DNA of 20,405 nt from a virus. The notes below the pieces were generated by a model. The model was not told where the DNA came from. It did no database searches and saw only the letters and a list, made by a program, of their open reading frames with translations. The stretch is taken from positions 1 through 20,405 of the IMG/VR virus record IMGVR_UViG_3300000553_001903; one strand, written 5' to 3'. Made by a program: the position numbers and the translations under genes. Shown one piece after another: positions 1,086 to 19,937 of the stretch (the first letter of the stretch is position 1; the number at the start of each line of letters is the position of its first letter).

Positions 1086-1645
1086 TTTTTAGGCTTATGT
1101 CCTCTTCGCCATTCGATTCCTGGACATTCTCTAGATCTAATATTAATAATACCGTTATTCCAAAAAAACAAACCCTTACCTAATTCTGACATCGGATTAT
1201 TTTTACCTTTCATTTTAAGAGAATGTCCTGGTCTTTTTTTATTTAAAAATGGATTAATTCTATTACGATTCATTTCTGCTATATCTGGTCTTTTTTTGCC
1301 ATACATAGAATTTTTAGAACCTTTTCCAAATCCTAATGGTTTTTTATTGGTAAATATTCCACCAATATTTTCATTTAACCATATATCAGATGTTAAAACG
1401 TTTAGTTTAGTTAGTACTTTCTTTTCCTAATTTTGGGCTGATATTTCATCTGTAAATATTTTTCTGACTTCTATAATATCGGGCAAACCAAAAGATTGTA
1501 TAAATGCTTTTACAAATTTTGATGATGTTTGATAAGGATTAAATAGATCAGATGGATGACAACCTTTAGCGTAACGAACACCATAATAGTATTTTTTGTG
1601 TTCAGACCATCCAATAAGATAAGTGTAAGGCGTATAAATAGACAT
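1082..1645 (-). pseudogene. GIY-YIG/NUMOD3 homing endonuclease interrupted by one in-frame TAG
   Basis: On the minus strand one frame of 188 codons runs from an ATG at 1645 to a stop at 1082-1084. It is broken only by a TAG at 1427-1429. The N-terminal half has YLIGW...KYYYGVRYA...HPSDLF, which is the GIY-YIG fold of phage Seg-type enzymes. After the TAG the frame continues with EKKVL, WLNENIGG, a NUMOD3-like SMYGKKRP segment and a C-terminal WNNGIINIRS...CPG tail. The TAG sits where relatives usually have Trp (A-x-x-W-E), so TGG to TAG is the simplest change. It is antisense to its neighbours, with its own RBS (TAGGAGAT) and late-type promoter. It is a fresh pseudogene unless TAG is read through. 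Confidence 0.85.
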
Positions 1646-1670: not shown

Positions 1671-1700
1671 GTAGGTAGGGATGACAGTCCCGTGACCTAC
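1671..1700 (-). promoter_or_regulatory. Bulged leader hairpin of the endonuclease gene
   Basis: Read on the minus strand: 6-bp stem GTAGGT/ACCTAC, 3-nt bulge CAC, 4-bp stem GGGA/TCCC, 6-nt loop, 1-nt bulge T. It lies between the TATAAATA box and the RBS of the endonuclease. A hairpin with the same layout but a different sequence precedes the second endonuclease (19895-19925). No U tract follows on either strand, so it is not a terminator. Its role is unknown; translational control of the late transcript is a guess. Confidence 0.7.
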
Positions 1701-1711
1701 AATTGATAATA

Positions 1712-1719
1712 TATTTATA
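1712..1719 (-). promoter_or_regulatory. T4-type late promoter box TATAAATA (minus strand)
   Basis: This is an exact match to the T4 late consensus TATAAATA, about 67 nt upstream of the endonuclease ATG at 1645 and pointing into it. T4-family homing endonucleases often have their own late promoters. The second endonuclease in this window has the same box at a similar distance. Confidence 0.65.
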
Positions 1720-18982: not shown

Positions 18983-18990
18983 TATAAATA
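18983..18990 (+). promoter_or_regulatory. T4-type late promoter box upstream of the tmRNA
   Basis: Exact TATAAATA on the plus strand. Transcription would start near 18997, which fits the 5' edge of the acceptor piece of the tmRNA. Early read-through from upstream is also possible. Confidence 0.5.
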
Positions 18991-19063
18991 ATATATGCTG
19001 ATGTCGATGACGAAAGCGAAATAGACATGCTGGACGGGGGTGCAATTCCCCCCGCCTCCACCA

Positions 19064-19149
19064 CGGATACACTGGATAAGACCGCTGAGTCGTTCTTAAC
19101 TGCTAGAGCCAATTAATTTGGGGCGTCGTAAGGACGGTGTATCTTTGAT
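19064..19149 (+). other. Intervening segment of permuted tmRNA
   Basis: This segment joins the CCA end to the GGGGGCG start. Its ends pair as GATACAC (19066-19072) with GTGTATC (19137-19143), stacking on the acceptor stem. It should be removed during maturation (RNase P at 19150). Confidence 0.8.
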
Positions 19150-19215
19150 GGGGGCGAAATAGGATCGACAGGTGTGTTAAAGGCGGACCGAGACAGAAGC
19201 ATAAATAAGTTATCT

Positions 19216-19272
19216 GCAAAAAAAGCACATAATGACAATATTAATTATTCCGCAATGAAAATTGCTGCTTAA
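19216..19272 (+). CDS. tmRNA proteolysis-tag reading frame
   Basis: This frame would be read on the tmRNA, not from a start codon. From the GCA at 19216 it encodes AKKAHNDNINYSAMKIAA and then TAA. A second GCA at 19225 would give 15 residues. The NDN motif and the C-terminal AA match bacterial tags. TTATCT before the GCA resembles the usual TAGTC context of the resume codon. Confidence 0.8.
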   Translation, partial: AKKAHNDNINYSAMKIAA

Positions 19273-19303: not shown

Positions 19304-19867
19304 TCAAATAACGGACTCACTTTTCCTTTTTGCCCAATATTCTTTTTTCTTTAAAGACATCTTTTTTCTAGCTTCTAAATTATGTAAAGGTTTTTGATTT
19401 TCTTCAAATTTTTTATTAGCCCACCATAATTTTTTCTTTATAGATATTTTTTCTTTAGTTTCTAATGTGTATTGTTGAACTTTTGTAAGCCCTCTATTCC
19501 AACCACCAATGGAAGATTTGCCTTTATTAGTTCCTTTGCCATTTCCACCTACAGAGTTTTTCTTTACATTATAATATCTAACAGTACCATTTTTAACATT
19601 TTCTGATAATAATAATTCATTATCTTTTATCATATCTAAATATTTTTGTTCACATTCACGTAAATCATTAGTATCACTATACGTATATTCTAATACTCTA
19701 AATTTAAATGTATGTGGTCTTAATTTATAAGCTCTTTTCATAGGTTTATTTGAACAAATGTATTTGTCTTCAACTTTACCATAATGACCGCCAATATAAT
19801 ATAATTTTGCTTTGGTATCATACCAAATGTAAATATAACCAGTATACGATGAGGGATAAATAATCAT
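19304..19867 (-). CDS. GIY-YIG/NUMOD3 homing endonuclease
   Basis: This 187-aa protein starts at ATG 19867, chosen for AAAGGAGAA 6 nt upstream; a GTG at 19927 would be too close to the promoter. The GIY-YIG domain is in the first 90 residues (TGYIYIWYDTKAKLYYIGGHYG; ECEQKYLDMI with the metal-ligand Glu). NUMOD3-like basic repeats follow (GKSSIGGWNRGLTK, TKEKISIKKKLWWANK, ARKKMSLKKKEYWAKR). It is antisense to the surrounding RNA genes. Its TGA at 19304-19306 touches the tmRNA 3' edge. It probably cleaves an RNA-gene-linked target in related phages. Very AT-rich, like other mobile endonucleases. Confidence 0.9.
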   Translation of the reverse strand: MIIYPSSYTGYIYIWYDTKAKLYYIGGHYGKVEDKYICSNKPMKRAYKLRPHTFKFRVLEYTYSDTNDLRECEQKYLDMIKDNELLLSENVKNGTVRYYNVKKNSVGGNGKGTNKGKSSIGGWNRGLTKVQQYTLETKEKISIKKKLWWANKKFEENQKPLHNLEARKKMSLKKKEYWAKRKSESVI

Positions 19868-19894
19868 GCTGTGTTCTCCTTTGTTGAGCATAGA

Positions 19895-19929: not shown

Positions 19930-19937
19930 TATTTATA
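19930..19937 (-). promoter_or_regulatory. T4-type late promoter box TATAAATA (minus strand)
   Basis: Exact consensus, 63 nt upstream of the endonuclease ATG at 19867, pointing into it. It matches the arrangement at 1712-1719. Confidence 0.65.

Follow-up and report, generated by a model that had tools for sequence, protein, structure and literature searches.

The two hairpins that precede the homing endonuclease genes of a 20.4-kb virus record (the window, by which we mean the whole stretch of DNA analysed) are, on comparative sequence evidence, copies of one conserved, widespread and previously uncatalogued RNA element of T4-like phages. We are nearly certain that the element is real and under selection. 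With a size of about 56 nt and two hairpins, it spans the endonuclease leader and Shine-Dalgarno sequence and ends about 0-3 nt from the start codon. Its fold most likely belongs to the strand opposite the gene, where it may act as an antisense brake on a selfish nuclease.

Few selfish genes are as common in T4-like phages as those for homing endonucleases. What is understood of how newly arrived ones are restrained comes largely from a handful of T4 hairpins. If the proposal is true, unrelated nucleases would have in common a portable RNA module, present in up to 15 copies in one phage, that serves as a general means of control; it would also be a conserved family of antisense RNA in lytic phages, for which such families are scarce. 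The element would also serve as a ready marker for finding nuclease cassettes.

Two endonuclease loci in the window

Late boxes and a PhoH-like ORF are present in the window, whose phage, to judge from the sequence, is apparently T4-like. A search of 50,697 phage records gave no near match to it. The two endonucleases are similar to those of Sinorhizobium, Rhizobium and Variovorax phages. Homing endonuclease 1 is a GIY-YIG enzyme (MSIYTPYTYLIGW...) encoded on the minus strand at 1082-1645, for which tblastn returned Rhizobium, Variovorax and Sinorhizobium phage endonucleases. A single in-frame TAG at 1427-1429 (minus strand) splits its otherwise open 1645-1082 frame, and the RNA element in front of it is intact. 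Homing endonuclease 2 (19304-19867, minus strand) is a SegABCDEFG-like GIY-YIG enzyme with homology to phiM12.

Each gene has a late-promoter box of its own, TATAAATA, on the minus strand at 1712-1719 for copy 1 and at 19930-19937 for copy 2; this sequence occurs four times in the window against 2.0 expected. A sequence-only reading of the window had reported both hairpins, both of these boxes and their distances of 67 and 63 nt from the genes, and all were recovered exactly as described. A second late box faces outward from within the start of each gene, on the plus strand: TATAAATA at 1633-1640 in endonuclease 1, where TATTTA is kept in 150 of the 181 relatives listed, and GATAAATA at 19855-19862 in endonuclease 2.

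A phage-encoded, circularly permuted (two-piece) tmRNA with the tag AKKAHNDNINYSAMKIAA lies at 19002-19272 on the plus strand, just downstream of a late box at 18983-18990. Such a permuted tmRNA also adjoins related endonucleases in contigs L003, L024, L025 and L029, which suggests that the tmRNA may be a favoured insertion neighbourhood.

A conserved fold of two covarying hairpins

Read on the strand opposite the endonuclease, the fold runs G, P2, A, P1. P2 has 8 pairs and an apical loop complementary to the Shine-Dalgarno sequence, while P1 consists of 6 pairs, a bulged G, 1 pair, a second bulged G, 3-4 pairs and a loop. In the predicted antisense RNA of copy 1 (plus strand), the P2 strands are CTGGATCT at 1648-1655 and AGATTTAG at 1662-1669, enclosing the apical loop at 1656-1661, and P1 occupies 1671-1700 with GTAGGT/ACCTAC, an A-T pair (1677/1693) between bulged G1692 and G1694, and GGGA/TCCC. 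In copy 2, also on the plus strand, P2 is formed by CTGTGTTC at 19869-19876 and GAGCATAG at 19886-19893, and P1 (19895-19925) by GTCAGT/ACTGAC, a G-C pair (19901/19918) between bulged G19917 and G19919, and GATA/TATC.

The same layout was found upstream of endonuclease relatives in viral contigs. Our starting set comprised 20 distinct leaders, gathered by protein homology, which aligned cleanly. In this set P1 is 99% paired, with both sides changed in 6/6 pairs, P1b is 94% paired and P2 84%. Cells in which both partners have changed number 83, compared with 26 in shuffles (0/500), and the excess holds in larger sets (288 vs 69 for 99 distinct copies, 292 vs 74 for 93). Overall, each of the six outer pairs of P1 is kept 97-99% paired while the sequence varies, and the earlier claim that pairing persists through sequence change is thereby borne out. 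The hairpin layout proposed with it was right as to the stems, but the apparent 3-nt bulge opposite a 1-nt bulge is an extra base pair flanked by two single-nucleotide bulges, and P2, a second covarying helix that encloses the Shine-Dalgarno sequence, had been missed. The middle base of the bulge and its partner are G/C in 158 copies, A/C in 72, A/T in 8 and G/T in 1, among at least 239 copies.

The two bulged G's and the CUG/UAG of P2 are invariant across copies. Most copies come from two DNA patterns that fix TCRCGG, CCCA, TCTA, GGAG and CAGC, so that the large alignments owe part of the invariance of these letters to the patterns themselves; among the 20 leaders obtained by protein homology the same letters hardly vary.

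Folding of single sequences is less telling. For the two window copies it gave z-scores of -1.0 and -1.6 for the leaders and -1.2 and -3.8 for the hairpins. The folding energies of two copies would not by themselves carry the claim, and it is the comparative evidence that is decisive. These modest values are what speaks for chance hairpins at two late promoters, an explanation refuted by hundreds of covarying copies and a clean score gap, and whose probability we consider negligible.

Distribution and association with nucleases

A covariance model built from the 20 leaders finds further copies in whole phage records, among them one each in Rhizobium phage RHph_I1_18 and Variovorax phage V45v66. 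The two DNA patterns, run on the viral collection, gave at least 182 matches, and the counts given below for pattern matches are among the matches listed. Model searches of 200 pattern-matched contigs yielded 236 matches, a single one of which did not exceed 45 bits, and the distinct copies in phage contigs number at least 239, with up to 12-15 per contig in contigs of 142-360 kb. The C4-like patterns biased this sample in favour of copies whose Shine-Dalgarno sequence is good; in some of those that the model alone detected this sequence is degenerate and P2 is still kept.

Rfam 15 covariance models at permissive thresholds gave no match over the element, which speaks against a known ribozyme or riboswitch, and two consensus elements compared by BLAST with the phage collection gave no useful match. 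The bacterial genome collection contained one true match, in a 3.8-kb contig, probably phage, of a metagenome bin. The covariance model had no match in T4, phiAS5, ValKK3, pf16, S-SKS1, S-SRM01, S-CBWM1, S-PM2 (NC_006820), phiM12, phiM19, phiN3, ACP17, Ps15 and others. Since some of these element-free phages have related nucleases, the nuclease does not require the element.

In 181 of the 182 pattern matches listed, a start codon follows CAGC by 0-3 nt. Among these matches, the downstream ORFs form 91 clusters at 60% identity, and Pfam and PHROGs assign them to GIY-YIG, SegE, HNH, HNH_3, endonuclease-VII-like and PD-(D/E)XK nucleases, most of which carry a homing endonuclease annotation. The element thus directly precedes at least four unrelated nuclease superfamilies (GIY-YIG, HNH, endonuclease-VII-like and PD-(D/E)XK). 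The idea of a selected RNA element travelling with endonuclease genes is upheld, as the covariance model finds copies before nucleases across many phage contigs; its restriction to GIY-YIG genes has to be abandoned. Relatives that keep the endonuclease and lose the pairing had been named as a possible refutation, and endonuclease relatives without the element do occur (L002, L038/L039 and those of phiM12 type), so the element is not obligatory, but pairing is kept wherever the element is present. In the phiM12-group relatives L041, L042, L044 and L047, which have no element, another inverted repeat comes right after TACTAAATA, for example CTCCGA...TCGGAG.

The element appears to move with the nuclease, with the edge of the cassette at the box. 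Downstream segments are akin to another element-linked nuclease in 169 of the 181 cases listed, as against 8/181 on the upstream side, and contigs L018 and L019 have the endonuclease and the element in common while their sequences diverge from the box outward. About five solo copies, all with high model scores, stand where the nuclease is absent or cut to a few codons (L108:1191-1250, minus strand; L113:4560-4616, plus; L119:142-198, plus; L147:7718-7776, minus; L270:3211-3269, minus), and all other copies precede nucleases. One solo copy directly precedes an ORF resembling a large terminase subunit. Solo copies keep the fold without a nuclease, and the element may therefore do more than restrain one.

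Nucleases of different families end in a C-terminal zinc-finger-like motif (CPHC...RWHFDNCK), among them those of L080, L082, L083, L204, L215 and others; a loose pattern finds it in 40/153 proteins. A shared zinc finger as RNA partner is not supported by so partial an occurrence.

The probable folding strand

An RNA under selection to form a helix tolerates G·U pairs, which appear as such on the transcribed strand and as A·C on the other. This asymmetry bears on a question beyond the reach of coordinates alone. Read on the endonuclease strand, P1 contains 29 A·C against 2 G·U mismatches (129 vs 115 in column shuffles) and P2 158 against 2 (208 vs 77), counts which are not independent events, as the copies are kin. 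The test uses positions left free by the patterns, P1.1-5 and P2.3-5. Of 68 distinct P1 stems, 18 contain an A·C, and so do 21 of 45 distinct P2 triplets, none of which has a G·U. Every copy of alignments A1, A3 and A4 has one A·C between P2.2 and P2.3, and the middle base of the 3-nt bulge obeys the same rule of A·C over G·U. Among 28 copies found without a DNA pattern, P1 and P2 together hold 18 A·C and 2 G·U.

Folding energies point the same way. In 189 of 190 copies the fold is more stable on the opposite strand (mean -17.8 vs -12.9 kcal/mol), while in a control region within the ORF this holds for 113 of 184, and P2 itself reaches -6.1 kcal/mol on the opposite strand compared with -2.4 in sense. 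Together, mismatches and energies place the functional fold most likely on the strand opposite the endonuclease, an assignment that we regard as very probable. The hairpin had been taken for a part of the endonuclease mRNA leader; in view of the A·C asymmetry, the fold energies and the outward late box, this is probably wrong.

Two late-promoter boxes facing each other

Two late-promoter boxes face each other around the fold, each about 5 nt from it. In most copies the box of the endonuclease itself lies 5 nt before P1 (the mode; otherwise 3-4). On the other side, the first 24 nt of 150 of the 181 ORFs listed contain TATTTA, which is complementary to the late box core, compared with about 1% in later windows. 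It falls in codons 2-5; the other 31/181 have no exact TATTTA. Its distance to CAGC is near-fixed, with a mode of 5. As TATTTA persists in all three frames (MxIY, MLFI/MIFI, MYL), it is conserved as nucleotides and not as protein, and MxIY was rejected as a conserved protein motif. T4 late promoters start transcription about 6 nt after the box, from which we infer that each of the two transcripts would begin at an edge of the fold. An antisense RNA transcribed from the inner late box is, on this sequence evidence, rather probable.

Other explanations of the inner box fared less well. In read-through RNA the endonuclease box (UAAAUA) could pair with UAUUUA; the cores are complementary, but the flanks do not covary, which argues against a pairing of the two boxes, as does the retention of TATTTA in 12 of 18 copies that have no endonuclease box. 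A leader of the neighbouring gene was also rejected: neighbours are antisense in 94 cases and sense in 59, and TATTTA is kept beside both, which links the RNA to the nuclease rather than to the neighbour.

A proposed cis-antisense brake and its alternatives

We propose that a cis-encoded antisense RNA made from the inner late box would repress the selfish nuclease gene. The inner box, at codons 2-5, would start a late transcript at the conserved GCUG, which would fold as G-P2-A-P1 and would be fully complementary to the 5' leader and Shine-Dalgarno sequence of the endonuclease. Pairing of this transcript with the mRNA would block ribosome loading or bring about degradation, and the nuclease would as a consequence be made late and in small amounts. 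The invariant bulged G's and the CUG/UAG of P2 are needless for simple antisense pairing and suggest a candidate protein partner; a protein probably recognises them and would stabilise the RNA or speed up the pairing. Promoter, RNA and nuclease would move as one cassette, so that incoming nucleases would carry their own brake, and multiple copies in one phage could be regulated together. We give this chain as a whole about an even chance. In its favour are the covariation of P1, P1b and P2, the strand asymmetry, the fold energies, the outward late box, the cassette edge at the box and the precedent of CfrI. Against it, no conserved terminator follows the antisense fold, the strand asymmetry would equally fit a single-stranded DNA hairpin, 31/181 listed ORFs have no exact TATTTA, a few solo copies keep the fold, and the invariant bases imply a partner that a plain antisense RNA would not need.

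The alternatives differ in the molecule that carries the fold. Hairpins folding in the late mRNA of the endonuclease could tune its translation or stability; in most copies the late box of that gene stands about 5 nt ahead of P1, the Shine-Dalgarno sequence is enclosed by P2, and hairpins of this sort have been described at the T4-type homing endonucleases I-TevI, mobE, segB and seg43(25). A sense-strand leader is nevertheless unlikely, given mismatches on that strand that are A·C and almost never G·U and a weak sense P2, and it leaves the outward box inside the ORF unexplained. The antisense transcript might instead be a small, stable RNA that, bound to the nucleases or to some protein of the phage or its host, controls all copies as a regulon. 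This would suit bulged G's and a CUG/UAG that stay invariant across unrelated nucleases, the many copies per genome and the solo copies without a nuclease; no common protein partner was found, the zinc-finger-like motif being confined to 40/153 proteins, nor any free-standing RNA gene except the solo copies, and we hold such action in trans to be distinctly improbable. Its boldest form, a new structured phage RNA class with two hairpins and paired bulged G's, which would act in trans as an RNA-protein complex, join all homing nucleases into one regulon and have been recruited repeatedly by unrelated families, is conceivable though doubtful.

The fold might, lastly, be one of DNA, either a hairpin of the opposite strand or an inverted-repeat protein site, serving cassette movement or control of the facing late promoters. 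The element does mark the cassette edge, its flanking boxes are inverted repeats, and G·T in single-stranded DNA would give the same strand asymmetry. A double-stranded site, however, would show no such asymmetry, there is no covariation between the box flanks, the ribosome-binding site is overlapped by P2 and the edges of the fold fall at the expected transcript starts, which together make a DNA element very unlikely.

Comparison with known systems

RNA structure and a late promoter also meet at I-TevI, I-TevII, I-TevIII, segB and Aeh1 mobE of T4-type phages, whose RBS-sequestering hairpins work within the sense mRNA and are confined to read-through transcripts (PMC2988022). In this combination the element is like them, although T4 itself has no match to the model. 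A restriction to read-through transcripts is not expected here: in most copies a late box lies about 5 nt before P1, so that a late transcript, with its start position inferred from T4, would contain the hairpin. In Aeromonas phage 25, a stable hairpin lies upstream of the RBS of the homing endonuclease seg43(25) and leaves the RBS unsequestered (PMC2988022). This single case, compared by description only, is presented in that paper with no mention of an antisense fold, a P2 or a family.

The closest setting is that of CfrI, an antisense RNA of about 225 nt that lies over a homing endonuclease in the T4-like cyanophage S-PM2 and is linked to psbA (PMC2984593, PMC12197685). CfrI is likewise an antisense RNA at a homing endonuclease but is longer, and S-PM2 (NC_006820) has no match to our model.

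In IS10, RNA-OUT exerts antisense control of the transposase as a short structured RNA complementary to the translation start of the enzyme. The element described here, which is known from sequence, differs from RNA-OUT in its invariant bases, its two hairpins, its phage late promoters and its unrelated nuclease families. The likeness lies in the arrangement: in both, an outward-reading promoter (here predicted) is placed just inside the gene of a selfish DNA enzyme, and the fold lies opposite the target gene, over its translation start.
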